Below are positions 9,291 through 26,669 of a stretch of 32,852 nucleotides of DNA, piece after piece; positions within the stretch are counted from its first letter, which is position 1, and every line of letters starts with the position of its first letter. Source of the DNA: Candidatus Moraniibacteriota bacterium. GTDB lineage: Bacteria > Patescibacteriota > Minisyncoccia > Moranbacterales > GCA-2747515. The stretch lies in contig JALVQA010000004.1 in NCBI GenBank assembly GCA_027031495.1, positions 23,218 through 56,069 of the forward strand. Direction: 5' to 3'. Under the pieces are notes generated by a model that worked only from the letters and a program-made list of their open reading frames with translations, made no database searches and was not told where the DNA came from. Position numbers and translations under genes: made by a program.

Positions 9291-10358
9291 ATGGCAGACA
9301 CACATTCTACAACACTCGGTGCACGTACGCCTCTCATTCTTCTCCCGCCGACACCATCACTTGATGCTGTCTGTGCAGCGTATGCGCTAAGTCATTTTTT
9401 TGAGACGCGTACGGCACATCCGGTTATTACGTGTACCGATACAATCCACGATAGCGCCACCTTTCTTAAAAAACCGCAAAAAAGTACAACAACTATCAGA
9501 GGATTGCAAGATTTCATTATTCAGTTTGACACGACACACAACGCCATTGACGATATTGAGATCTCTCGCGAAGAAAAAACAGTACATATTATCATCACGC
9601 CACAAAATGATTTTATTGATCCGCGTGATTTCTCCTTTGCACCGTCACGCCTTCACTACGACGCTATTTTTCTTGTTGGCACAGATACTCTTGAGGCCAC
9701 AAAACTTACAACACCGGAAAATCTTTCACTTCTTGAAGAATTGCCACGTACTGTTTATGTATCGTCACCGAAAGCGCCGATCATAAGCATGCACGTTTAT
9801 GAAGATCTTTGGCGCTTTAGTACAGAAAGTGTTACTGGAGCTGTCGCGCATGATCTTCTTGCGGGCATCGTTGCTGCAACTGACGGCTTGCGCTCCGAAA
9901 CTATTACAGCAGATATTTTCCGTACCGGCAGTACCCTCATGCAATCCGGTGGCGACTTGCAAGCAATTATGCTCGCACTTTACAAAACAGTGTCTTTTGA
10001 TTTTCTTCGCTCGTGGGGTGATGTTCTTGATAAACTTACGCTCAGCCCATCAAAACGTGTTGCGGCGGCATTTGTCACAAAAGACTATGACATACCGCTT
10101 CTCTCTCTTATCCTGCAGAGAACCGCGCAATTTCTTCCACATGTTCATATCTTCGGCATATTCTGGACATTACACACAACACCACAGATAACACAGGGTG
10201 TTATACTTCCGACACATACTATTTCACAAACACTTTTAGAGGACATTTTTTCAACAGTGTCACCGGCACCACATAACTGTTTCTTCGTTACCTCTTCCGC
10301 AAAACCGCAATCCATCATTACACACATCGACGCACACCTCGAAAGACAGCGCGAATAA
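9291..10358 (+). CDS. Degenerate DHH/NrnA-like family protein (hypothetical)
   Basis: PPTPSLDAVCAAYALSHFF resembles the D-x-D motif region and AIFLVGTDTLEA a following DHH-family strand; the DHH triad position reads SSPKAPI, i.e. lost. Confidence 0.5.
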   Translation: MADTHSTTLGARTPLILLPPTPSLDAVCAAYALSHFFETRTAHPVITCTDTIHDSATFLKKPQKSTTTIRGLQDFIIQFDTTHNAIDDIEISREEKTVHIIITPQNDFIDPRDFSFAPSRLHYDAIFLVGTDTLEATKLTTPENLSLLEELPRTVYVSSPKAPIISMHVYEDLWRFSTESVTGAVAHDLLAGIVAATDGLRSETITADIFRTGSTLMQSGGDLQAIMLALYKTVSFDFLRSWGDVLDKLTLSPSKRVAAAFVTKDYDIPLLSLILQRTAQFLPHVHIFGIFWTLHTTPQITQGVILPTHTISQTLLEDIFSTVSPAPHNCFFVTSSAKPQSIITHIDAHLERQRE

Positions 10359-10389
10359 TGGTACAATAGAAAAAAATATCATTTTTTCT

Positions 10390-13300
10390 ATGTTACATCC
10401 ATCATCACTCGGGTCGGGTAATCGCCCACAAATTCAAGCAAAACAAGTTTCGCGCACAATTCGTGAATTGCGTCGCAAATCGGAAGAAGAAAAAACGGCA
10501 GCATTTGCTCACGAAATCGGTGCGCCATATGTCGATCTTAATCTCATGCCTGTTGATGATACTGTCGTACGCCTTATTACGGAAGAAGAAGCACGTACAT
10601 ATGGCATCGCACCGTTTCATAAAGCAGGGCGACTCGTGCGCATTGCGGCAATCAACCCAAAAGATGAAAAAACGAGAGCGTTTATTGCGCAGCGTGCCAA
10701 AGAGATGCGGTGGCGCGTTAATCTTTACGTTGCATCACTTTCTTCCCTCAAAAAAGCATGGCGTGCTTACAAGAAGCCTCTCATCGAAAAAGTTGATGCG
10801 CTCAATCTCACTATTGATCAAGAAACACTATCGGAATCAGCACGCGCTATCAGAAATCTTCGTGAGCTTGTTGATGGCATTGGTGATTTTTCTGTCACAC
10901 AAGTTATGCAGATTATTTTTGCAGGTGGCGTCGCTCTCGGCGCAAGTGATATTCACATTGAGCCAGAGCGCAAACGATTGCGCCTACGCTATCGTATTGA
11001 CGGCATTTTGCACGACGTCGGTGATCTTCCACGACGTCTGTACAATTCCATCATCAATCGCATCAAAGTCATGAGTAACATGAAGGTTAACGTACGCGAT
11101 ATTGCGCAGGACGGACGCCTTTCTATCAACCTTGAGGAGCAGGGACGTATTGATGTACGCGTAAGCACAATTCCCGGCAACTACGGCGAGAGCGTCGTTA
11201 TGCGTCTTCTCATAAAGGACAACAGCATCATTGACCTCTCTGAAATGGGTATTCGCGGCTTTGCAGACGAGCTTCTTCGTAAAGAGTCGGAAAAACCAAA
11301 TGGCATGATCGTAACAACCGGTCCGACGGGAAGTGGTAAAACAACAACGCTCTATGCCCTCTTACGTCGCTTGAATAAGCCTGGTGTAAAAATTATCACT
11401 ATTGAAGATCCGATTGAATATGAAATTGAAGGCATTTCTCAGACACAAGTTTCTCATGATGGCAAATACACATTCGCAAAGGGACTTCGCGCAATCGTTC
11501 GTCAAGATCCTGATATTATTCTTGTTGGCGAAATTCGCGACGACGAAACAGCTGATATCGCCGTTAATGCGGCGCTTACCGGTCACCTTGTTCTCACAAC
11601 TATCCACGCAAATAACGCTGCCGCAACAATTCCACGCTTCCTTGAGCTTGGCGTCAAACCATCGCTAATTGCGCCATCCATGAATGCGCTTATGGCACAG
11701 CGTCTTGTGCGTCGCCTTTGCGTGCACTGCCGCGAAAAATACGAACCAGCAGTCGAGACACTTGATACAATTAAGCGCCTCCTCGCCGTCATTTCACCAA
11801 AGGCAAAAGTAACGATCCCAAAAGATGTTAATACTCTTTACCGCCCAAAGGGCTGCGTGAAGTGTGGTGGCACCGGATACAAGGGACGTATCGGTATTTT
11901 TGAGATCTTTACTATTACGGAAACAATTGAAAAGATCGTGCTTGATATGGGCACAGAAGAGGAAATCATGCGTGCGGCAATGGAGGACGGCATGATGACA
12001 ATGACGCAGGATGGTATTCTCAAAGCGGTAGAGGGTATTACGTCTATGGAGGAAGTGTGGCGCGTCACCGCTGAGGGCGATTTTCTTGAAGACGTCTATA
12101 ACCGCATCATGGAACAATCACTTGCACGCGCCATTGTTGTTGAAAATACAGTTGTCAATGATATTGCAACAATTATACGTGACTCAAAAGCGTTGAGTGA
12201 GCGTATAGCGAAAGCTAATCAAAAAGAGGTTCTTAAGATTATTCTTGCAGCAGGTCTTTTGAGTAATGCTGGCGACATTCACATTGAGCCGGAGGCTGAT
12301 GGCGTTGCCGTTCGCTTCCGCATTGACGGCGTATTGCAGTTTATTGGCAAGATAGCGACCAATGAGTACCCCTCAATGCTCTCAAAACTCAAATTAATCA
12401 GCGGCCTCAAGACAGATGAACGCTATGGCGTTGCTGACAGCCGCTTTTCCATCGTTCTTGATGAACCACTTGGTGATCATGATTCACAACGCGTTGACGT
12501 TCGTGTCTCCTTTATTGTGAGTGGCTTTGGCGAAACTATTGTTATGCGTCTTCTCAATCAGTCTGCAACATCACTTAAACTTGACTCCCTCGGTATTCGC
12601 GAACAAAACCTCAAAAAACTTCTTGATTCTGTAAAGAAGCCATATGGCATTGTTCTCAATACAGGCCCAACCGGCAGCGGTAAAACAACAACACTTTACA
12701 GTCTTCTCTCACACCTCAACAAACCGGAAGTAAAAATTATCACCGTTGAAGATCCGATTGAGTATCAGGTGGACGGCATTTTGCAAACGCAAGTTGATGA
12801 GGACGCTGGGTATACATTTGCAAATGCCTTACGCGCACTCCTGCGTCAGAATCCGGATATCATGATGATTGGTGAAATTCGTGACGAAGAGACAGCGCAA
12901 ATTGCAGTACAGGCAGCTCTTACGGGACATTTAATCCTCTCAACGCTTCATACAAATTCTAGCGCCGTCTCCATTCAACGACTTATGAATATGGGTGTTA
13001 GCGCGGAAGATCTCGCAACAAGTGTTAACGCTTTCATGGCGCAGCGCCTTGTGCGCGTGCTCTGTCCACACTGCAGAAAAGAAGTTACACCAACAAACGA
13101 GGAACGGACAATTCTAGAAAACGTACTTAAAACACTTTCAAAAGCGAGTGGTGTTACGCTACCACAAACTGAAAAAATTTATAAACCAGTTGGATGCGAA
13201 CATTGCCACTTTGGCTACAAAGGACGCACTGTCATTAGCGAGATTCTTGTTGTTGATCAAGAAGTTCAGGATATGATCAGTACAGGAGAACTTGCCATAC

Positions 13301-13416
13301 ATATCATTGAGCATGCTGTCGAAAAAGGTATGATTACAATGACACAGGACGGCGCCCTTAAGGTGTTTGAAGGCATAACGTCCATTGAAGAATTGCAGCG
13401 TGTCACAGAGCTCTAG
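10390..13416 (+). CDS. Tandem (double) GspE/PilB-type secretion/pilus assembly ATPase
   Basis: Two full ATPase cores: Walker A GPTGSGKTTTLY at 11320 and 12664; Asp-box/Walker B DPDIILVGEIRDDETADIA and NPDIMMIGEIRDEETAQIA; His-box GHLVLTTIHANN and GHLILSTLHTNS; two Zn tetracysteines (CVHC/CVKC and CPHC/CEHC). Confidence 0.95.
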   Translation: MLHPSSLGSGNRPQIQAKQVSRTIRELRRKSEEEKTAAFAHEIGAPYVDLNLMPVDDTVVRLITEEEARTYGIAPFHKAGRLVRIAAINPKDEKTRAFIAQRAKEMRWRVNLYVASLSSLKKAWRAYKKPLIEKVDALNLTIDQETLSESARAIRNLRELVDGIGDFSVTQVMQIIFAGGVALGASDIHIEPERKRLRLRYRIDGILHDVGDLPRRLYNSIINRIKVMSNMKVNVRDIAQDGRLSINLEEQGRIDVRVSTIPGNYGESVVMRLLIKDNSIIDLSEMGIRGFADELLRKESEKPNGMIVTTGPTGSGKTTTLYALLRRLNKPGVKIITIEDPIEYEIEGISQTQVSHDGKYTFAKGLRAIVRQDPDIILVGEIRDDETADIAVNAALTGHLVLTTIHANNAAATIPRFLELGVKPSLIAPSMNALMAQRLVRRLCVHCREKYEPAVETLDTIKRLLAVISPKAKVTIPKDVNTLYRPKGCVKCGGTGYKGRIGIFEIFTITETIEKIVLDMGTEEEIMRAAMEDGMMTMTQDGILKAVEGITSMEEVWRVTAEGDFLEDVYNRIMEQSLARAIVVENTVVNDIATIIRDSKALSERIAKANQKEVLKIILAAGLLSNAGDIHIEPEADGVAVRFRIDGVLQFIGKIATNEYPSMLSKLKLISGLKTDERYGVADSRFSIVLDEPLGDHDSQRVDVRVSFIVSGFGETIVMRLLNQSATSLKLDSLGIREQNLKKLLDSVKKPYGIVLNTGPTGSGKTTTLYSLLSHLNKPEVKIITVEDPIEYQVDGILQTQVDEDAGYTFANALRALLRQNPDIMMIGEIRDEETAQIAVQAALTGHLILSTLHTNSSAVSIQRLMNMGVSAEDLATSVNAFMAQRLVRVLCPHCRKEVTPTNEERTILENVLKTLSKASGVTLPQTEKIYKPVGCEHCHFGYKGRTVISEILVVDQEVQDMISTGELAIHIIEHAVEKGMITMTQDGALKVFEGITSIEELQRVTEL

Positions 13417-13445: not shown

Positions 13446-13471
13446 AAAAAACCTCTACACCGAGGTTTTTT
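13446..13471. terminator. Bidirectional terminator between convergent genes
   Basis: aaaaaacctc (13446-13455) - tacacc - gaggtttttt (13462-13471); A/T tracts on both sides. Confidence 0.8.
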
Positions 13472-14710: not shown

Positions 14711-17700
14711 TTACTGACGTCGACGTGCACTTGGAGAAGTAGAATACCACCAAATGAGCGCCACAATAAATACAACTATGCCGACTGCGAGGAAGATGCG
14801 GAACAAGAAAAGTATTGCCTCTGGACCGTTAATACCAAGTGCCGCAAAGAATGCTGCTGGTGCTGAGAGCGAACCAGCATTAACATCTTCTGCGTATTCC
14901 ACCTGCATATTGCCATCAAAATAGAGCGGTGCAAGTTGTTGATCCGTGTAACTCCAGGCATCTCGCACCAATTGTCGCACATCCACCGGTAACTGAAACA
15001 CTGCTTTTGCCATAACATTTGAGCTTTCACCCGGAAATTTATTTGTTCCATCTACGGTGAAAGCATTACCAGGCGCACCCATCAGCACACCGTTTGAATA
15101 CCAATTTATTTCCGTCATTGGCATAAGCCATCGTGGACGAGGACTCGCAAAAACTGTCGGTGAACTATGTGGCAATGCGAGAAAAACAGTTTTACTATAC
15201 TGTGGGACAGGTCCACCTTTCTCCGTATCACTCTTATACGTTGCAACCTCTTTCTGCACAAGCCCCTTGCACTGTGATGAACCGGTCGTACCATCGTCAA
15301 ATACCTTCCTCTCATCACAGAATGACACGTATGGCTCAACAACAACAAATTTTCGCGTTACCTCTATTGCCTTGCCGCTACCATACTCTCGCTTATCATT
15401 ATCCTTACCATCTTTCTCCCCAATGCTGTTTGCAGAAACTGTTATGATATATTCTGTGCCAGGCTCTCCTGTAACAAAGAAGTAATTACATACTGATTCT
15501 TTTGCATCATCTTCCTTTATACCGGACTCAAAGCACTTGAAACCATCCGGCTTGTAGAGTGGCTCATTATTAATCGCCCATCGATAGTTCATGTACTGCG
15601 CATAACCACTGAGACGTTTATCAAGAGCGAGTTTCAACAACTGCCCCTTTACTATCGGGCACTTTACGATTTGACCAGGCTCATCTTCACATATCACTGG
15701 CGCATCAAGCGACCCAGCGGTTTGCTCCGCCTTATTCACGGAATAAACACGCATTTTATTTGATGCTCTCGCTATGCGGAATGTAATATCAGCACGCCCG
15801 CGACTCACATCATACTCATGAAGCTCATGCGCCGTCAAATCAAAATCTTCTTCAACAAATACACGCACACGCAGATAGGTAAAATCTGAGTCTTCATCAG
15901 GAAACAAACCGTTCGGCGCATCTTCCTTATTTTCCTCTGGCAACTGTGGCATCGGAAGATTATCCGGTATATTCAACTTAAAACTCAATTCGGATAAGCC
16001 ATTACCCTTTAGTGGCGTAACCTCACCCTTGAAACCAATCTCATCATTATCAGCAAACACACCCTTTCCGAGATCAAGATTTCCCGACGATCCTGCAATC
16101 AAACGCCAGTTATCAGGATCAAAATCAGCGGTACCATTCTCACTTCGCCACACAGACCACTTGTAGCGCAATCTATCGCCTTTATATTTTGCATTTGCAA
16201 TTGTTGATTTTATTGTTACAGTGTCACCCATATTGGCATAAAGATCCTTCGTTAAATCAGAGATACTTGGATCGTTCACAGGGTTATTTGGCGAGACGCT
16301 CAAATCAACTTCCAACTTCTTTGCAGCGCCGCCTTGCGCCGGCTTCACAAAGGCATCTTTTGAATGTGTCAGACAGTTGTTAAATGCCGCCTCTGGACCA
16401 CCGGCATCAGCAAAAGAAATCGCCGGGATTTTTACATCATAGCCACGAATTTCTACTTGATAGTGTCCCGTCTGTGATGGAACACCCACTTTCGAGATAC
16501 CGGTATAATCACATGCATTATTTACCGTCGCAAACATGATCATATTCGATGAATCTGGGTGCTTTGTTGCATTCATTGACGTTCCTTCTACGATAACACC
16601 AACTTCATCGCCCGGTGTATAAATCCATGTAAAAGAATCCTGCCCGAGACCAACAATAGTCGCCTCATCATTAACACCATTGTCAGACGTGTCCTGATCG
16701 TAAGGATCTGTATGATAGAACAATTCTCCACTTCCTACGCCAGGCCCACCCTCAAGCTCCCCTCGCGGAAACCCTTCATTGCCTCCATCTTCAGCGCTTG
16801 CACCGGCTTGCTCGCCGTGCGCATCTCGCGGAAAGAGGTGAAAGCGCTGGATATCATCGGCAGTGATTTTCGGTGGAAAACACTCTTTTATAATGTCATC
16901 TTCGTCAAAAATGTGCTTTCCTTCACTTACAACACCGTTGTAATTGCGTCCATACAACTCTGCCTCACACGAATAGTAGTCACTAAGAACGTATGAGTCA
17001 CGATAGAGCGTTATCAATTTCGCATCTATAGCATTCTCTGGGTCCTGTGCTGTATCAGTTTCATCGTCATATACTTGATTTTGTGGTGGCGGCCAGAACG
17101 ACTGTAGCGCTTGAATATCTTTGTCATTACACTGAAAAATTGTAAACTTGCCATCTGGATCAACTACATATCCTCTTTCTGCAGGATCAGCTGGCTTATA
17201 TCGCTCCTGAGCATCGTACGTCCATGCTGGCAGGTCGCCAAGTGCCTTCATGCGTGTGTCAATATCATCTATCGTATACTCAAGTGCATCTTTGTCCACA
17301 CACACAGCAATTTCACCTTCATCGCATTTAACAATCCCTTTGTCACGAAGCGCGCCAAGAAACCCGCCAGCATCTTGACTAACGAGCGACTTACATGTCG
17401 GCTGACCTGTGACAGCACAAATATTAAAAATGTTTGATGTTCTGTTAATGTTTGTTATAAATGACCCGTGCGAATCTCTTTTCACAGCACCGCCTTCACC
17501 GCCTTTCCCGCCTGCGCCACCGGCACCGCCAGAACCACCGGCACCGCCACCACCGGCGCCTGCGCCACCGGCACCGCCTTCACCGCCTTCACCGCCTTCA
17601 CCGCCCTCAACATCCAATTCCTTTTCTCGTTCAATTCTATCGCTTATCTGATACGCCGGACACTCAAGTTCCTCATTCCGCACACATACCGGCACCTTAC

Positions 17701-18394
17701 CTTTGTCGGCACACTTTGGGTATATGTGTTGCTGATCAACATTATCAACAATTTCGTAATTTTTACCGGAATTAAAATCATGGATGTAGTAATAGTATGG
17801 TATTGATTTCTTGGAAGCACTGCGCTTGTTGTCACCACCCGGAAATGCCACATAACCGTCATTATCAGCATCTTCATCAGGATCGCCACCTTGATCACTA
17901 TACCGAACGTCAAAACCACCGCTTGCGATAATACGTGCAGCCTCAATTTTCATATCATTAATGTCATAAACATCGTTCCCATCATAGTCACACCCCCTGG
18001 CAGGCGCATTTTCAACCGTGCCATTGATCTCCACTAATGATTGATCTTCGTTAACACACTTCGCACGCTTTAGATACCATGTAAAGTAAAGGGAATCTGC
18101 AGTATTTGTAAAGAATTGCGCAAAAGCACGTGCTGTAATTTTCTTCCCCGGCTGTGGATCCTGTGGTGAAAACATAATACGCACCTCTGGCGCAAAACCC
18201 TTATTTGCCGAAACGTTGAGTGTTTCACCCATATTCTGCGCCGCCTCTTTATCAATGTGGTAACGACGCTCAATCTTTCCAGCACTTGGTTTGCCAAAAA
18301 TGGCCCCCACTGCGCTATGACCACCACTAAGCACAAATACTTCAAAAGAAATAAAAAGGATAATAGCAACTTTTTTCAAAACTTTTTTTCTCAT
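14711..18394 (-). CDS. Large (1227 aa) secreted, C-terminally membrane-anchored surface protein with a Gly-rich linker and acidic repeat-like motifs
   Basis: Signal/TM N-terminus; GGEGGEGGEGGAGGAGAGGGGAGGSGGAGGAGGKGGEGGA tract; Asp-rich Ca-binding-like motifs DYDGNDVYDIND, DPDEDADNDGYVAF, DPYDQDTSDNGVND; C-terminal TM AILFLFRIFLAVGIVVFIVALIWWY. Confidence 0.8.
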   Translation of the reverse strand: MRKKVLKKVAIILFISFEVFVLSGGHSAVGAIFGKPSAGKIERRYHIDKEAAQNMGETLNVSANKGFAPEVRIMFSPQDPQPGKKITARAFAQFFTNTADSLYFTWYLKRAKCVNEDQSLVEINGTVENAPARGCDYDGNDVYDINDMKIEAARIIASGGFDVRYSDQGGDPDEDADNDGYVAFPGGDNKRSASKKSIPYYYYIHDFNSGKNYEIVDNVDQQHIYPKCADKGKVPVCVRNEELECPAYQISDRIEREKELDVEGGEGGEGGEGGAGGAGAGGGGAGGSGGAGGAGGKGGEGGAVKRDSHGSFITNINRTSNIFNICAVTGQPTCKSLVSQDAGGFLGALRDKGIVKCDEGEIAVCVDKDALEYTIDDIDTRMKALGDLPAWTYDAQERYKPADPAERGYVVDPDGKFTIFQCNDKDIQALQSFWPPPQNQVYDDETDTAQDPENAIDAKLITLYRDSYVLSDYYSCEAELYGRNYNGVVSEGKHIFDEDDIIKECFPPKITADDIQRFHLFPRDAHGEQAGASAEDGGNEGFPRGELEGGPGVGSGELFYHTDPYDQDTSDNGVNDEATIVGLGQDSFTWIYTPGDEVGVIVEGTSMNATKHPDSSNMIMFATVNNACDYTGISKVGVPSQTGHYQVEIRGYDVKIPAISFADAGGPEAAFNNCLTHSKDAFVKPAQGGAAKKLEVDLSVSPNNPVNDPSISDLTKDLYANMGDTVTIKSTIANAKYKGDRLRYKWSVWRSENGTADFDPDNWRLIAGSSGNLDLGKGVFADNDEIGFKGEVTPLKGNGLSELSFKLNIPDNLPMPQLPEENKEDAPNGLFPDEDSDFTYLRVRVFVEEDFDLTAHELHEYDVSRGRADITFRIARASNKMRVYSVNKAEQTAGSLDAPVICEDEPGQIVKCPIVKGQLLKLALDKRLSGYAQYMNYRWAINNEPLYKPDGFKCFESGIKEDDAKESVCNYFFVTGEPGTEYIITVSANSIGEKDGKDNDKREYGSGKAIEVTRKFVVVEPYVSFCDERKVFDDGTTGSSQCKGLVQKEVATYKSDTEKGGPVPQYSKTVFLALPHSSPTVFASPRPRWLMPMTEINWYSNGVLMGAPGNAFTVDGTNKFPGESSNVMAKAVFQLPVDVRQLVRDAWSYTDQQLAPLYFDGNMQVEYAEDVNAGSLSAPAAFFAALGINGPEAILFLFRIFLAVGIVVFIVALIWWYSTSPSARRRQ

Positions 18395-18399
18395 AATGT

Positions 18400-19017
18400 T
18401 TATTTTAGAAAAGCGAGAGCAATGCCATTAATAATTAGCGTACTAAAAATGAAAAATGCCAACGAATAATAAAGGGAGCGACTGTAGTGCGCTATCGCAG
18501 TTGCGAAAACCACGCCGATATACGCATCAATTATTACAATACTAAAACCATTTATTATAGCGAAAAGAGAAACTGTTAAGAGCATGCTCACTATGAGACC
18601 GCTTTGCACACCATTAACAACAAAGCCCATCAGAAAATAATTATATATCAGCGCATAAATCGTCATGAGCAAAGCATACAATATAAACATGCCAAAACTT
18701 TCCCTTACAATCTGCGGAACACTTTCTTCAAGAAATGACGTGCCAATAAAATGCGCAAGCAGAAGAAATGCGACAATAAAACTACCGAGCGATAACGTTG
18801 CCAAAAGTACACCCGTCATTTTTTGTCCTGCTCTAAAACCAAAATTCTCCAACTTTTCGTGCAGAACAAGACGCGCACATGCCATTGGCGCAACAACAAG
18901 AAATCCTATAGCTGAAATGATATCTTGAAAAATTCCCTCATGCGGGAAAAACCTATACAATAGCGCACATGCAAACGCTACTCCTATAATCAATAATGAA
19001 CGTCGTGTATAAATCAT
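18400..19017 (-). CDS. Polytopic membrane protein, possible catalytically degenerate CPBP-like protein
   Basis: Multiple TM segments; ALIYNYFLMGFVV aligns by eye with the CPBP EExxxR region but lacks E/E/R. Confidence 0.5.
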   Translation of the reverse strand: MIYTRRSLLIIGVAFACALLYRFFPHEGIFQDIISAIGFLVVAPMACARLVLHEKLENFGFRAGQKMTGVLLATLSLGSFIVAFLLLAHFIGTSFLEESVPQIVRESFGMFILYALLMTIYALIYNYFLMGFVVNGVQSGLIVSMLLTVSLFAIINGFSIVIIDAYIGVVFATAIAHYSRSLYYSLAFFIFSTLIINGIALAFLK

Positions 19018-19102
19018 GTATTTTTACTCTTCTCTTATAGATAAAAGAGTGTGCCTATTCTCTCTTAGTATACCACATTCTATATATCGTGCGCCATACT
19101 TT

Positions 19103-19981
19103 TTAATGTACAAAAATATCCTGTGTCTTTTTGCGTGCGATATAGTACCGTAATGCAAGCGTTGCAAGACCCGTTGTGTGCGCATTTGACATTTCTTCAT
19201 CTTTGTATGCCCACCCGCCATCTTTTTTCTGCGCATCAATGATTTTCTGCATCCACGCATAAGAAATGTGGTCGCCATGACCAGCCCAGTACAACACAAC
19301 AACACGCTCGGCAAAGAGATCGCTAAATTCCTGCGGCTTATCCTGCGCCTTTATAATACGATTTGCGGTTTCTATAATATGCGCATCAATATCATTACCA
19401 CCACAACCATTTCGCTTTAGCAAAATAAATGCAATGAGTTGATGTGTATCAATATAGCCTCCCATACCATCACGCGCGACTTTTAGAAGCGCATAGTCGG
19501 CATCGGTATAGTCAAAATCACAATATAGTGCACGAACAAGTATGTCATCGTACACATCAGTAATATTTTTTTGCGTCTGCGCGTCAAATGCATAAAATGC
19601 ATGATCCAATTCTGTGCCAAATTGACGAAAATACCATGGAATATCGCGCACTTCTCTAATAAAAGTTCCTATTACTTTTGGTCGCATACTTACATCATGC
19701 ATATCAACAAGACGACGGAATACATTATCTTTCTTTAAGCATCTGTAAGCGTAATTACGTCCGTATATGTGCGCGAAAAGAATACATTCATCACTTTTAA
19801 GTGTGCGTACAACATCATCTGTATAAAAACTGCGCGCATGCATCGCATGTATCAAAAGAGTATAGTGTCTTACAGCAGAAAAAATAATACTGTTTTGCGG
19901 TCTTATAACAAAAAGAGCAATATCGATGCATATAGACGCAATTGCCACAAAAACAAGACCTCTTCGCCATCGTAAAGTCAT
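19103..19981 (-). CDS. Membrane-anchored protein with a prenyltransferase/terpenoid-cyclase-like alpha-toroid motif
   Basis: TM GLVFVAIASICIDIALFVI; C-terminal WMQKIIDAQKKDGGWAYKDEEMSNAHTTGLATLALRYYIA. Start placed at ATG 19981, next to the upstream stop. Confidence 0.55.
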   Translation of the reverse strand: MTLRWRRGLVFVAIASICIDIALFVIRPQNSIIFSAVRHYTLLIHAMHARSFYTDDVVRTLKSDECILFAHIYGRNYAYRCLKKDNVFRRLVDMHDVSMRPKVIGTFIREVRDIPWYFRQFGTELDHAFYAFDAQTQKNITDVYDDILVRALYCDFDYTDADYALLKVARDGMGGYIDTHQLIAFILLKRNGCGGNDIDAHIIETANRIIKAQDKPQEFSDLFAERVVVLYWAGHGDHISYAWMQKIIDAQKKDGGWAYKDEEMSNAHTTGLATLALRYYIARKKTQDIFVH

Positions 19982-19982
19982 T

Positions 19983-20423
19983 TTACACAGCCATATTATA
20001 CATGTAATAGAAAATGCGTTGCTTCTCTTGTTCAATTTTTCCAAGTAATTTTTTTGCCTTATTTCTCTTTCTGCGCGCGTGATTCCACATCAAAAAAATA
20101 ACAAAAACATTACCAAACCATATCATCGATATAATCGGAATGAAATCAATCAATAAAATAAGAAAGCGTATAATCTTTGCGCGCAGAGCACCAAATCTGA
20201 AGTTGAAAATAATCATATAGATGGTAAGCGGCAAGACAAGAAACGCAAAGATTATACCGATTATCGGTATAGCTGTAAATAAATCGGCAATTGTGTCAAG
20301 AAAAATGGCTATTGTAACTGGAATAAACCATATTGTTTTCTCAAAATGCGCAATATCCCTCCGCGCCTTCTTTTCAATCTCTTCAAGTCGCGCCAATTCC
20401 GCTCTGTACGGTATCTGCGACAT
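19983..20423 (-). CDS. Small polytopic membrane protein (hypothetical)
   Basis: 146 aa; coiled N-terminus and three hydrophobic segments; embedded in the operon. Confidence 0.65.
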   Translation of the reverse strand: MSQIPYRAELARLEEIEKKARRDIAHFEKTIWFIPVTIAIFLDTIADLFTAIPIIGIIFAFLVLPLTIYMIIFNFRFGALRAKIIRFLILLIDFIPIISMIWFGNVFVIFLMWNHARRKRNKAKKLLGKIEQEKQRIFYYMYNMAV

Positions 20424-20450
20424 AATTTTTTCTCTCTACTAACTATTGAT

Positions 20451-22268
20451 TTATATTTCGTCATTCTCCTTTCTCCTCTTAATACCCAAAATCTGCTCTG
20501 GGTTTGATGTAACAATTTGATCTTCGCTATAAGATGCAACAACTTTAATAGCAACATGCTTTGTGCCGGCAAAAAGAATACCCTCACCAACACTACTTTC
20601 GAGAAGAAGAAACTTTTCATGGTCAGTCAGAAAAAATGTTTCCTGCACCGTTTCAATCGATGCCGGCGACTGTTTTAGGAGAAGTTGCAGTGATGAGTTT
20701 GTTACAATTGGTCGCCCATATTGCGAGCCCATAAAATCGGAGATGTCCTGCGTAATTGTCGTAAGTCCTGTATAGTACTTACGACACCGTTTTGCAATAC
20801 CAAAAAGAAAACTTGCAGCATCCTCTTTCTGCATCATCACCCACGCCTCGTCAACAATGACAAGACGGCGGCGCAACTCTGCGCGCATTTTGTCCCATAT
20901 AAACTGCAGAGCAATGTACATTGCAATCGGTCGCAATTCGTCTTCCAAGTCGCGAATATTAAACACTATCAGCTCACCGTTTACTTTAACATTTGTATGA
21001 TTATTGAGAAAGCCAGAAAATATTCCGCGCGTATACTTCTCAAGACGCGCCGATAGCGACTCGGCACCCTCCATATTTTCCAAAACTTGCCCGAGATCGG
21101 CCATTGTCGGATAGGTCTCCGGTGACAATTTACTGAAATCAGTATCCTCCGTTATATCACGAATCGCATATGTTTCTCGCAAAGCGCTATCTAAAATAGA
21201 ATCCTCTTCCGGCGTTGTTGAACCAAGCATAATGCGCAAAAGACCGATAAGCATCGCTATATTGGAACGAAGAACCTCTGACGGACTCTCGTCTTCGCCA
21301 ACCGATGGCAAATCAAATGGATTGATAAACGATTTTGACTTCAATGACAATTTAATAAATGTGCCGCCGACTGTATCGCAAAGATATTTGTATTCATTTT
21401 CAGGATCAATCACAAAAATCTGCGTCCCCATCATCATCGATCGCAAAATTTCCAACTTCACAGCGTAGCTCTTACCGGCACCGGATTTTGCAAAGATGAC
21501 CATGTTTGCATTCGGCTGTTTAAAACGATCAAGAATAACAAGAGAATTATTATGACGATTGATACCATAAAGAATACCGTCATTCGATGAAAGTGTTGAT
21601 GATACAAAGGGGAATGTTGTTGAAAGTGGCTGTGTATTAAGATTGTTGCCAACATCAAGCTCGTCATTTGCAAGTGGCAATGTTGATGAAAAACCCTGTT
21701 CCATGCGCAAAACAGCCGGCTTAATGAAGACAAGTTGCGCCTCAAGCATTGATGTAATTTCCTTTTCAACTTTTGATAATTTTGCCTTGTCCTCAGCGTA
21801 AATTGTGATATACAATCCAAAACGAAAGAAATGTTCTGTTCCTTGTAATAATCGATCGCGCAATTCTTCAATATTACGTAAAGCTGTTTCAAGAACAGGG
21901 TTGCGTACCTTACCCTCTTCTCGCTCAATATTAATCTGCGATTGCACTTGCGTTACACTTCGCCGTAACTGTTTAACAACATCACTTGTCCTCATTGGAT
22001 GGATAAAGTACGCAATATCCATTGGCAAATCAAGGTTGATTATCGGCGAAAACCAGTTTGTCTGTAGGTAGCGAGGATACGCTGTTATAAAAAGTGTTTT
22101 TGCATAAACCTCACCTATCTCCAAAAACATTGGCGAGATACGCATAGCGCTCGGCGCAATCAATCCGCGCACAGTTGCAACGCCACGCTGATAGATATTC
22201 TCAGCCTCGAGAAGATCATCAGCATTCATTACAGTATGTGTTTTTTCTTTTTTTGCAAAAAGGCTCAT
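20451..22268 (-). CDS. virB4-like: VirB4/TraC-type type IV secretion ATPase
   Basis: Walker A VIFAKSGAGKSYAVKLEIL, FVIDPENEYKYLCDTVGG, Walker B RRLVIVDEAWVMMQ, ITQDISDFMGSQYGRPIVTNSSLQLLLKQ. Confidence 0.92.
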   Translation of the reverse strand: MSLFAKKEKTHTVMNADDLLEAENIYQRGVATVRGLIAPSAMRISPMFLEIGEVYAKTLFITAYPRYLQTNWFSPIINLDLPMDIAYFIHPMRTSDVVKQLRRSVTQVQSQINIEREEGKVRNPVLETALRNIEELRDRLLQGTEHFFRFGLYITIYAEDKAKLSKVEKEITSMLEAQLVFIKPAVLRMEQGFSSTLPLANDELDVGNNLNTQPLSTTFPFVSSTLSSNDGILYGINRHNNSLVILDRFKQPNANMVIFAKSGAGKSYAVKLEILRSMMMGTQIFVIDPENEYKYLCDTVGGTFIKLSLKSKSFINPFDLPSVGEDESPSEVLRSNIAMLIGLLRIMLGSTTPEEDSILDSALRETYAIRDITEDTDFSKLSPETYPTMADLGQVLENMEGAESLSARLEKYTRGIFSGFLNNHTNVKVNGELIVFNIRDLEDELRPIAMYIALQFIWDKMRAELRRRLVIVDEAWVMMQKEDAASFLFGIAKRCRKYYTGLTTITQDISDFMGSQYGRPIVTNSSLQLLLKQSPASIETVQETFFLTDHEKFLLLESSVGEGILFAGTKHVAIKVVASYSEDQIVTSNPEQILGIKRRKENDEI

Positions 22269-22291
22269 GAACTTTTTTAGATTAAAAAATG

Positions 22292-22984
22292 TTACAGTCC
22301 CTCTACGTCTACACGTGACAGTTCCGAAAGTGATGTGCTCGTAAAGAGTGATGGGTTATATGCGTTATACAGTAGCTCAAGTATTTCCTCTGTATCGAGT
22401 AATACACCACGAACACCAGTGCCGGAAAGCGCCATTGTTATATGATCAACGCGCTGAAAGAGCTGATTTTTATATGTTTCAAATTTTTCGCGCCTTGCGC
22501 TAATAACGTGTTCCGGATGAAATGCCGCCATCATGCGTGCAAAGAAACCAGTTTCCTTACTCTCTACCGGCGAAAACGGCACAACAACATAGAAAAATTT
22601 TGACATGATATTTGTTACATCTGTCAATTCTCTAATGAATAAACGATATTCTGCAATCTGCGTCCGTATTGCCTCGCTCTCCGTACGTCGCTCACGATCA
22701 TTGAGCATTTCTATATATGGTTCAATATTAAGTTTACGCGAGCTGATAAGTATCTGAAGTGGAAAATCAAGTGAATTGAGAAAATTTTGATACTGCACAA
22801 TAATAGCATCTTGCTCTTCTGATGATTTGAGATCAAAATTGATCGATGACATCATTACAATAGCCCGCAGTGAGCCATTGCGCAAAACAATGACACTATC
22901 ATGTACTTCGGCAACATCAACATACTTCAGCGTACTCGCACCTGATGCGCCGGATGCTAATTTTTTCTCATGTAATCGCTCCAT
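22292..22984 (-). CDS. TraC/VirB4 N-terminal-like protein (separate ORF)
   Basis: VAEVHDSVIVLRNGSLRAIVMMSSINFDLKSSEEQDAIIVQYQNFLNSLDFPLQILISSRKLN is typical of a VirB4/TraC N-terminal domain; directly upstream of the ATPase ORF. Confidence 0.75.
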   Translation of the reverse strand: MERLHEKKLASGASGASTLKYVDVAEVHDSVIVLRNGSLRAIVMMSSINFDLKSSEEQDAIIVQYQNFLNSLDFPLQILISSRKLNIEPYIEMLNDRERRTESEAIRTQIAEYRLFIRELTDVTNIMSKFFYVVVPFSPVESKETGFFARMMAAFHPEHVISARREKFETYKNQLFQRVDHITMALSGTGVRGVLLDTEEILELLYNAYNPSLFTSTSLSELSRVDVEGL

Positions 22985-23015
22985 AAAATCTATATCTCTT
23001 TTTGTTTATATCAGT

Positions 23016-23483
23016 TTACTTTTTATTCTTTGTTGCATGACTTTCAAGTATCTCAATAGCACGATCAGTTCTGTGGTGCCCCTCGCTATCTAATACATCA
23101 GCCAACACAGCAATATCTTCAATGGTCATTGAAGCACTTTTTTTATAAAATTGCGCATCATATTTATCGCGTTTCTTTGTAATCTTTTTCTTTTGCCAAC
23201 CAACCGGACGACGCCATACGTAAATTTTTGGCTGGATAAGAAACGTGAGTGCATATCCAACAAACGTGACAAGTGATACGCCATGTGGTTTATAAAACGC
23301 AAATGCGCCAAACAAAAGGAATAGGAAAAACGCAACAACATAAAACGTTGCCTTATTATCAAAGAGATTCCACAATACAATTAATACAGCCCCGAACGCA
23401 AGCAACCATAAAAACTGTCGCGCCGTCAACGGACCGGCAATCTTGTCCTCAACATCAATATATTGCGGTACACTAAAAAGCAT
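23016..23483 (-). CDS. prgI-like: PrgI family membrane protein (T4SS-associated)
   Basis: SVPQYIDVEDKIAGPLTARQFLWLLAFGAVLIVLW..., two TMs, KPHGVSLVTFVGYALTFLIQPKIYVWRR. Confidence 0.85.
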   Translation of the reverse strand: MLFSVPQYIDVEDKIAGPLTARQFLWLLAFGAVLIVLWNLFDNKATFYVVAFFLFLLFGAFAFYKPHGVSLVTFVGYALTFLIQPKIYVWRRPVGWQKKKITKKRDKYDAQFYKKSASMTIEDIAVLADVLDSEGHHRTDRAIEILESHATKNKK

Positions 23484-23492
23484 ACGATTTCT

Positions 23493-24551
23493 TTATTTAT
23501 ATCCTACAGATGCGGAGTTATTGGCACGCATTTGTGCAGACTCCTTTTCCTGTGCGAGTTTTTGTCCAGATGAAAACGTCACATACCCCATTGGTTGCCC
23601 CTTATCTTCCACTGCCTCATGAGCATTTTCATTCTTCTTTTTTAGTATAGCATCTTTTTGCATCGTGCGCGTGTGCTGATGCTGATTGCTGTGCATGCCC
23701 TGTATTTGTTTGCTATTGTTATCAGCCGTCCGCATATCGCCATGTGCATTACGTTGCTCACTATGACGACCTTCCCGTTGAGAAAAAGTAGATGGTTGAG
23801 TGTTTTTTACGCCAGTACGACGTGGTACTTTTTGCGCTACAGGAAAGACAACTTCCTCGCGCTCAATATCAACGACCAACGGCATATTCTCGTCAATAGA
23901 TTTTAACACCATTGCCACACGTTGCCGTTCCTCTGCGCTCAGCGATCGCGTATTGCGTCCATGAAACAAGTAATTACCACGCTCAATCGCCGTGTGTTTT
24001 CCTTGTCCAACAGAAAGACGGTAATCAGTAATCCAATTACCGATTGTGCCAGGGCTATATTTTTGTGTGCCAGCAACCATGATATTTGACTTTGTAATGA
24101 TCTGATTTTTTACACTCTTAAAGCGCTCAAGTGTTTCACGCAATGTCATGCGCACTTTTGTTTCCCTTGCCGGCTTCTTTATAATTTGCTCAGTTAGAAT
24201 GCGTGCTATATCTTGTGCCTTCAGTGGTGCAATACCAAGATTTTCTATAAAGTAGTCGGCAAATTTCTCAAGTGGCAGTTCGCCAAAATAATAAAGACGT
24301 ATTGCGCGCGCAAGAACAGCCATTTCTTCCAAACTGAAACCAGCACGCTCACCAATACGCTGAATGATCCGCATTGTTCTTTCATCCGCCATAATACTCT
24401 TTACCTTCTCCGGTAGTGCGTAAAAACGTCGCCAACGTGCGCGCCACTGCCGCTCTGTCTCTCCAATATCAGGCACAATCATTGGCAAAGTAAATTTCTG
24501 CACAATGATTGGATCTATTTCTTGTATTGATTTTTGATATGATTGCGTCAT
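23493..24551 (-). CDS. Hypothetical cytoplasmic protein of the T4SS-like operon
   Basis: 352 aa; helical N-terminal half (FSLEEMAVLARAIRLYYFGELPLEKFADYFIENLGI), disordered Q/H/N-rich C-terminus. Confidence 0.65.
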   Translation of the reverse strand: MTQSYQKSIQEIDPIIVQKFTLPMIVPDIGETERQWRARWRRFYALPEKVKSIMADERTMRIIQRIGERAGFSLEEMAVLARAIRLYYFGELPLEKFADYFIENLGIAPLKAQDIARILTEQIIKKPARETKVRMTLRETLERFKSVKNQIITKSNIMVAGTQKYSPGTIGNWITDYRLSVGQGKHTAIERGNYLFHGRNTRSLSAEERQRVAMVLKSIDENMPLVVDIEREEVVFPVAQKVPRRTGVKNTQPSTFSQREGRHSEQRNAHGDMRTADNNSKQIQGMHSNQHQHTRTMQKDAILKKKNENAHEAVEDKGQPMGYVTFSSGQKLAQEKESAQMRANNSASVGYK

Positions 24552-24584
24552 ATTTTCTCACTTTTTTACATACACTCTACATCC

Positions 24585-26669
24585 CTATGTACCAGATCCC
24601 CTGTTTCTCTCCCTGACAGCGCGCTGAACATCAGCATCAGTTGCGTGTGTAATAATATTAGAGCCACTACCAGTTTGAACATTATTGTTATCTACTGTAT
24701 TTGCACTGACATTTGCATCAGCTGTTGTTGCGCTACCACCAGTATTAACATTAACATCTGTTCTGACATCATTGTTAATAGTAAAATCCATCCCCTCAAT
24801 ACCTCTTCTAATATTATCACTCACATCTCTCAATACTTCCGCATTACCACCTTTTAGGGCATCACGCACCATCTGCGCATCAAGCACAACACTATTGTCA
24901 ACATGCTCCTTAAGCATTTCGCGAGCATTACTATGAAGCGCATCAAATCTCTTCTGTTTACCAAGCTCTTCCGCACCAATTCTAAATTCATCTCGAATAA
25001 TTTCTCTCATCTTAACATCATCACCGCGTGCTTCTCTGTCAATTCTATACGCTGCCACAACATCTCTGCGACCATCGTTGCGCACATTTCTTTGAATCTC
25101 CTTTGCGAAATCTTCCCGCAAATTCTCCGGTACAAGAGCTCTCTCAATTACCTTACCTCTTTCATCCGTCCTACCTTCAATAAGGGACATCGCTGTATTC
25201 ATCCTTGCAACGCTATCAATCATGCCCTTCTGTGCAGCTAAGCGTGCAGCGGCAACACGACGTTCTTTTGATTCCCCTTTATCTTCCATTACCTTAACCA
25301 ACTGTGAACCGGTTAAGCCAAGATCTTTCAATTCCTTCTCCGCTGCTGCAAGAGATTTTGCAAAAGACTCTAATTGCACCTTACTTCTACCAATAATTGC
25401 CCTCTGTGCAGACATTTGCTCTGCGTAAGCATTTGCTTTTTGCTCAAAGCGATCTCGCCGCCGCTGTGCACTCACTTTAAACGAGCGAGCAAATCCTGTG
25501 GCACGTGCCGCGCCAGGCATTGCCTTTAATGTTCCAATAGATGCATACTTACCACCCGTTGCCAATGCTCTACCGGTTTTCCTTGCCATACCCTGACCAA
25601 AACGTGTCACCATTTGTGATGCCCCATCCGATGTTGCATTAGTCATAATAATGCCGGCCCATAAAATTACAATTGGAATCATGAGAAAAACAAGATTGGT
25701 CATATTACTCGCTTGCGCCTCATTTGTTGTCGCTGTTTCTGTCGGATGCATAACGCTATTCACACTCGTAGGATCAAACGCCACCTTATGTACATAATGC
25801 ATGTATGACATGGAAAAAAACAGCATAAACACAAGAATAGGACCGGTAAAGGCATACTTAAAGAGATTTTGCCACCATTGTTGCGCATATCCTTGCGTGG
25901 ACGGTAAAATCGCACCAACAAAGCCAATCGGTGAAAAGATCATCAGTATAGCAAGTGCAACGAGACGCACAACGAGTAAACCGGCAATGGTTATCATTGA
26001 TATGCCATAGAAAAATGCAAAGATAATTGCCATGAAAATATAAGATGTTTCTTGATTAGCAACTTCTCTCTTTGGAATAAAGACGTCAACGATGTTCATA
26101 GATTTCCCGAAAATTTCCAGAATCTCAAATCCGTTTTCCGTCTTTGGAAAAAGATTATTCACAAAGAAGTACATTAGAATATTTGATGCATCAATAATAA
26201 CTTTTGCAATTGGCAGACTAAAATTTACCAAAAGTGCCATAATGATCAGACGCGTAAGCACATTACGCAAATGATAACGCTCAATCTGAAAAATTGTCGC
26301 AAAAGCACTAAAAAGCAAAATCAATATGAATGAAAGATTCAACACATCACGCACAATCGTCCAGATCAGATCAATTACTTTATTGCCAAGAATTTCTTTA
26401 ACATTATTCGTATCCAGTACATAGGTAAAAAGTGTCGCACCAGCAACGCCAAGTAACCCAAACATTTGCGCAACATAGTAAAGAAACCAATTAATAGCAG
26501 AAGTAAACGCTTCTTTTATAGATGCTGCATGCGCCGTCGCAAAATTAAAACCACTATCACTGTAAAAAAAGTGACCCGCTACGACGAATGCAAAAAATAC
26601 TCCCACGCCCACTTGTAACCACTGTTGTATTTTCCTTTTTTCTACGCAAAAAAACTTCCGCACACGCAA
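24585..26669 (-). CDS. VirB6/TrbL-like polytopic membrane protein
   Basis: Signal-like N-terminus, at least six hydrophobic segments including VVRLVALAILMIFSPIGFVGAILP...WWQNLFKYAFTGPILVFMLFF, long charged helical C-terminal tail. The ORF caller uses a TTG start. Confidence 0.8.
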   Translation of the reverse strand: MRVRKFFCVEKRKIQQWLQVGVGVFFAFVVAGHFFYSDSGFNFATAHAASIKEAFTSAINWFLYYVAQMFGLLGVAGATLFTYVLDTNNVKEILGNKVIDLIWTIVRDVLNLSFILILLFSAFATIFQIERYHLRNVLTRLIIMALLVNFSLPIAKVIIDASNILMYFFVNNLFPKTENGFEILEIFGKSMNIVDVFIPKREVANQETSYIFMAIIFAFFYGISMITIAGLLVVRLVALAILMIFSPIGFVGAILPSTQGYAQQWWQNLFKYAFTGPILVFMLFFSMSYMHYVHKVAFDPTSVNSVMHPTETATTNEAQASNMTNLVFLMIPIVILWAGIIMTNATSDGASQMVTRFGQGMARKTGRALATGGKYASIGTLKAMPGAARATGFARSFKVSAQRRRDRFEQKANAYAEQMSAQRAIIGRSKVQLESFAKSLAAAEKELKDLGLTGSQLVKVMEDKGESKERRVAAARLAAQKGMIDSVARMNTAMSLIEGRTDERGKVIERALVPENLREDFAKEIQRNVRNDGRRDVVAAYRIDREARGDDVKMREIIRDEFRIGAEELGKQKRFDALHSNAREMLKEHVDNSVVLDAQMVRDALKGGNAEVLRDVSDNIRRGIEGMDFTINNDVRTDVNVNTGGSATTADANVSANTVDNNNVQTGSGSNIITHATDADVQRAVRERNRGSGT

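Follow-up and report, generated by a model that had tools for sequence, protein, structure and literature searches.

A tandem GspE/PilB-type motor protein with two diverged ATPase cores in one chain, encoded away from the pilus genes of a Patescibacterium

The stretch of DNA that we analysed, hereafter the window, comprises 32,852 nucleotides and carries on its forward strand a single open frame for a 1008-aa protein with two GspE/PilB-type ATPase cores (Table 1). Pfam finds two T2SSE (PF00437) stretches in the product, scoring 763 bits summed, with core 1 at about residues 169-558 and core 2 at about residues 616-1006; our own T2SSE profile puts them at about 175-561 and 617-1007. The sequence-only reading had described two complete cores in one chain, with an N-terminal domain before the first alone, and both points are borne out by Pfam and the motifs: the sole MshEN (N1) domain precedes the N2D of the first half, matching the domain order of GspE and PilB. 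Each half (H1 and H2) carries a Walker A motif, a catalytic Glu (residue 381 in H1, 829 in H2), an Asp box (338-344 and 786-792), a His box (399 with 406, and 847 with 854), two Arg fingers and a tetracysteine zinc motif, and in H1 the leader and N2D segment contains R224, Q240 and R243 together with the Arg fingers R257 and R272. The two halves are 48% identical, and the repeat unit extends to the leader of about 48 residues (563-610), whose predicted secondary structure is like that of the segment before the N2D in H1. Since these motifs are intact, both halves look catalytically competent, as had been proposed, and simple decay of H2 can be rejected for the window protein.

Table 1. Features of the tandem ATPase gene and its surroundings (positions in the window)
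Feature	Position	Strand	Remarks
DHH-like protein, 5' of tandem gene	9291..10358	+	355 aa; 31-nt gap
Tandem GspE/PilB-type ATPase gene	10390..13416	+	one open frame, 1008 aa; Pfam
MshEN (N1) domain, single copy, first half only	10519..10773	+	aa 44-128; Pfam PF05157
H1 leader and N2D	10804..11211	+	aa ~139-274
H1 C-terminal ATPase domain (CTD)	11242..12075	+	aa 285-562
H1 Walker A, GPTGSGKTT	11320..11346	+	aa 311-319; sequence
H1 tetracysteine site	11719..11865	+	C444, C447, C489, C492; sequence
Junction / H2 leader	12076..12219	+	aa 563-610; frame open throughout
H2 N2D	12220..12555	+	aa ~611-722
H2 C-terminal ATPase domain	12586..13413	+	aa 733-1008
H2 Walker A, GPTGSGKTT	12664..12690	+	aa 759-767; sequence
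H2 tetracysteine site	13063..13206	+	C892, C895, C936, C939; sequence
Intrinsic-terminator-like hairpin, 3' of tandem gene	13446..13471	+	hairpin count near shuffle expectation
VirB4/TraG P-loop ATPase	20451-22268	-	T4SS-like group
PrgI	23016-23483	-	T4SS-like group
TrbL/VirB6-like	24585-26669	-	T4SS-like group

An extended -10-like element, TGGTACAAT (window 10359-10392), ends about 22 nt 5' of the start codon of the tandem gene, and no Shine-Dalgarno sequence is visible in the same interval; a very short leader on the transcript is possible. Separate translation of H2 from an internal start was considered and rejected, as the candidate starts with Shine-Dalgarno sequences at the junction were scattered, each occurring in at most 5 of 32 genes.

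The tetracysteine zinc motif is absent in PilT and FlaI, and its cysteines, together with a pilT_fam score of 346 bits against 899 for GspE, led us to reject a PilT/PilU-type retraction ATPase; a VirB11/TraG-type secretion ATPase was likewise set aside, as its match to the VirB11 profile, at 106 bits, falls short of the cut-off of 250. The whole-protein NCBIfam scores of 899 and 890 bits each sum two stretches, so that passing the equivalog cut-offs is not independent proof of the assignment. In trees of the cores, computed without PilT and with other PilB/GspE proteins as outgroup, both H1 and H2 fall in a 66-row clade (support 99) nested among PilB/GspE sequences. The usual one core per chain of GspE/PilB is replaced here by two, but this trait is not strictly defining, and the tandem protein is thus a variant of the GspE/PilB family and not a new kind of system. 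We found no description of tandem or fused PilB/GspE (T2SSE) cores in the open-access literature, subscription papers being outside the search.

Among characterised relatives, PilB of Geobacter metallireducens and G. sulfurreducens (PDB 5tsg, 5tsh, 6olj, 5zfr) shares its fold and motifs with the tandem protein, is about 44% identical to it in structural alignment, and likewise has the MshEN-N2D-CTD order and a tetracysteine zinc site, but it has one core per chain and forms a homohexamer with a C2 cycle (PMC5424180). The GspE/EpsE/PulE proteins of type II secretion (PDB 1p9r, 4ksr, 4pht) also share fold, motifs and zinc site, with R210 and R225 equivalent to the Arg fingers of the tandem protein; they too differ in having one core per chain and in being homohexamers.

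The fusion is widespread. An H2 profile (E below 1e-150) matches 118 of the 131 genomes of the order, Moranbacterales, and most of the matching frames are about 1000-1060 aa long. At that cut-off five near-complete genomes (G042, G044, G046, G114, G124) have no match, so the tandem gene is probably dispensable. Tandem frames also occur elsewhere in the class (families f40, f53, f25, f44, f23 and part of f58), where most other members have a single homologue of 550-600 aa. Outside the class, at least three families (f206, f213, f233) have them as well. The survey of related genomes that the sequence-only reading had suggested therefore places the same architecture in well over 100 independently assembled genomes, which excludes chance and assembly error; the sequencing error that might have undone the earlier claim did not materialise. 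Given also that H1 and H2 form separate lineages, we regard the joining of two adjacent genes by an assembly or sequencing artefact as ruled out for practical purposes.

Both cores have been conserved as engines in nearly all of these proteins. In a motif table of 67 tandem proteins, the Walker A Lys, the catalytic Glu and the R257 finger are present in all 67 H1s and in all 66 of the H2s that cover them, and the R272 finger and His-box H406 are each present in 67/67 H1s and in 64 H2s. The exceptions are few: in genus g17 (L169:3319-6405 and L192) H2 has decayed, with H406 replaced by Gln, R272 by Lys and an altered Asp box; the H2 zinc cysteines are lost in family f23 only (L163-L165); and the lone deviation in an H1 Walker A (L182) lies in a gene cut by the end of its contig or stretch. 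Among relatives H2 diverges slightly faster than H1, with mean pairwise identities of 57% and 61%, respectively.

The genomic context sets the gene apart from the type IV pilus genes. The source genome, a 1.0-Mb MAG that is 98% complete, carries on contig 15, a different contig from that of the tandem gene, a pilM-(two unassigned ORFs)-pilB-pilT-pilC operon, and encodes one PilC (with two T2SSF domains), one canonical PilB and one PilT; given this canonical pilB, the tandem gene encodes an additional PilB-type motor. Adjacency to the platform gene is typical of GspE/PilB, if not defining, and pilC adjoins 33 of 41 canonical pilB/gspE loci but none of 89 loci of the tandem gene's family, which makes the tandem protein an orphan motor. 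No pil genes lie near the tandem gene. Relatives generally have as many canonical PilBs as PilCs, which leaves the tandem protein without a platform of its own, and its putative tie to PilC and pili comes from homology only. In another Patescibacterium, Saccharibacteria TM7x, the main pilus set is likewise accompanied by a second assembly ATPase, PilB2, which, in contrast to the orphan tandem protein, comes with its own pilC2, pilM2, pilN2 and pilO2; that source mentions no tandem or fused ATPase (PMC12206443).

Attempts to read a function from the neighbours were uninformative, as these are a DHH-like protein and housekeeping genes: tsaE, ruvB and yebC are usual, with the DHH-like gene directly upstream. 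The DHH-like cluster is present in 26 of 46 loci compared, usually in that upstream position; the copy in the window has no Pfam match and no DHH signature that we could see by eye, and so may be a non-catalytic member. At several loci (L064:6814, L065:6919, L073-L079), of tandem and single-chain members alike, it is replaced upstream by a protein of about 340 aa, which has no Pfam match in the L076 copy and by eye is probably a membrane protein. Convergent with the tandem gene, a T4SS-like gene group occupies window positions 14711-26669 on the reverse strand and includes, besides the genes in Table 1, several unassigned ORFs, one of them of 1227 aa.

In trees of separate cores, all H2 sequences, those of distant families included, form one clade (SH-aLRT 99), while the H1 sequences are interleaved with single-chain homologues. 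Some of these singles (L184 in the order itself; L166, L167 and L172 in family f58; L168 in family f44) adjoin the H1 of organisms closely related to their own. Given the monophyly of H2 and the singles among the H1s, the simplest reading of these trees would be one ancient duplication-fusion followed by repeated loss of H2 (in L184 and in L166-L168). The old duplication would have fused a leader, N2D and CTD to the C-terminus of a normal PilB-like protein of N1-N2-CTD architecture. An AU test does not reject a duplication as deep as the base of the family (p 0.167); in the best tree one H1 group falls outside H2 on a short branch, so that the exact branching order is tentative. To judge by its repeated loss and its decay in one genus, H2 appears to be dispensable. 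One further protein, L172 (743 aa), whose family also has tandem members, has a single core with a tail of about 180 residues behind it, possibly a remnant of H2.

Where the two halves differ is in the N2D. As a reference we took 82 positions, 61 of them in the CTD, whose conservation across 102 single-chain cores is 93% or more. H2 has lost four of the 82 (R224, Q240, G242, P262) and H1 one (R243); all five lie in the N2D, none of the 61 CTD positions being lost, and the bias of the H2 losses towards the N2D has a Fisher p of 0.003 with positions treated as independent. Among the controls, none of the conserved positions is lost in the order's canonical PilBs and one is lost in far PilB/GspEs. 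Single-chain members of the tandem family lost 4/92 positions relative to canonical sequences, with E235 and R237 in the a2-b4 loop, and as this change is common to single-chain relatives, part of the change in that loop predates the tandem. R243 has been lost in 47 of 67 H1s, against 2 of 23 single-chain relatives, and one of the latter two, L184, nests among tandem H1s. The window protein lacks the residues matching R224 (K666 instead), Q240, G242 and P262 in H2 and retains R243 in H1, so that the reciprocal pattern of loss is a trend of the family.

By alignment to the crystallised protein, R243 corresponds to R257 of G. metallireducens PilB; where the interface is open and holds ATP, that Arg forms a bridge to the Glu of the ASP box (PMC5424180). 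In the predicted structure R224 sits within helix a2, and Q240 where the a2-b4 loop ends; an AlphaFold model with 6:3 stoichiometry has the N2D of PulE docking PulF through the surface formed by a2 and this loop, and the N2D in GspE has been modelled as contacting the membrane platform (PMC10790770). These sequence comparisons show that H1 and H2 have specialised in the N2D.

How such chains might assemble can be considered in the light of the platform. According to reports or models, PilC/PulF is a trimer in which each chain has two cytoplasmic domains. Tandem chains arranged in a C3 ring would fit it site for site, and a hexameric ring made of three tandem chains, as already proposed, is plausible. 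We lean, with modest confidence, towards the overall reading that an orphan tandem motor arose by one duplication-fusion and that three of its chains form an alternating pseudo-hexameric ring on a shared trimeric PilC. Three chains would close into one ring with H1 and H2 alternating; every H1 and H2 subunit would hydrolyse ATP, and only the three H1 subunits would bear N1. The C3 ring would sit under a PilC trimer offering six docking sites (three chains with two T2SSF domains each), for different positions of which the N2Ds of H1 and H2 would be specialised, and for want of a pilC of its own the protein would act on the platform of the main type IV pilus, either as an alternative motor or as an auxiliary one. 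The more specific claim that subunits are covalently fixed in non-equivalent alternation, as a C3 trimer in which the six N2Ds pair one by one with the two kinds of cytoplasmic domain that alternate in a PilC trimer, we regard as doubtful enough to be put forward tentatively. The sequence-only reading had further linked the tandem to the two-fold cycling of PilB, and this link is not supported: alternation of H1 and H2 would give C3 symmetry with subunits i and i+3 unlike, so that a two-fold cycle does not fit, whereas the PilB model pairs equivalent opposite subunits (PMC5424180). PilT also adopts C3 alternating states, the function of which has been called unclear (PMC6858323).

Other arrangements were weighed against the alternating ring. 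Were the working ring to consist of H1, alone or together with canonical PilB, and H2 to be a regulatory or stabilising domain that binds ATP and need not hydrolyse it, one would understand why it is H2 that is lost, decayed or stripped of its zinc cysteines and that diverges slightly faster, while H1 is intact save for the deviating Walker A of L182 at a contig end; yet in most lineages every catalytic residue of H2 is conserved like its counterpart in H1, which one would not normally expect of a domain limited to ATP binding, and we think this rather unlikely. Six chains might instead stack an H1 ring on an H2 ring, giving twelve ATPase domains as in double-ring AAA+ proteins, and the helical leader of about 48 residues between two complete cores could permit such stacking. 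AlphaFold does not decide the matter, the full chain (pTM 0.45) showing no confident packing between the halves and a piece comprising the H1 CTD and H2 N2D (pTM 0.64) no confident packing either. Against stacking, we know of no T2SSE protein that forms stacked rings, and H2 retains its own N2D, Arg fingers and T397, as expected of a subunit within a ring; moreover, in the solved PilB/GspE hexamers the N2Ds lie on one face and touch the CTDs of neighbouring chains in a single ring (PMC5424180). We accordingly judge stacked rings improbable.

It is also conceivable that the tandem protein drives another envelope machine, for DNA uptake or a T4SS-like secreton, and not a pilus, since its gene is always away from pilC and in the window adjoins the VirB4/PrgI/TrbL-like cluster. 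That cluster was not seen beside the tandem gene in the relatives compared, where the neighbours are the housekeeping genes, and the protein scores highest with GspE/PilB models and far lower with VirB11, so we give this explanation little credence.

The ring ATPases PilB, PilT and VirB11 are homohexamers, and the symmetry of their cycling (two-fold, three-fold or other) is a matter of dispute; because the rings are homohexameric, subunits at chosen positions cannot be mutated. With two diverged cores in one natural chain, a mutation can be placed in every second subunit, and whether the subunits of a ring motor do equal or unequal work becomes directly testable. R224, Q240, G242 and P262, lost in H2, and R243, lost in many H1s, are concrete residues for such a division of labour. 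If the C3 trimer reading is true, it implies that a motor of the PilT/PilB family can do its work in the C3/alternating state (PMC6858323). In members of the order, small-celled and probably host-dependent, motor ATPases outnumber PilC platforms by one, a point relevant to their use of pili.

Two double matches in Omnitrophota (L103:7824-11262 and L111:1-2934), considered as tandems, proved to be separate adjacent genes. These gspE-gspE pairs place two full-length cores side by side, like the tandem gene, but as separate, almost touching genes beside pilC (in L103 also pilT) and outside the tandem clade; such an adjacent gspE/pilB pair is an unfused counterpart of the tandem gene. The g17 proteins L169 and L192, with an intact H1 beside the decayed H2, are natural one-engine tandems.
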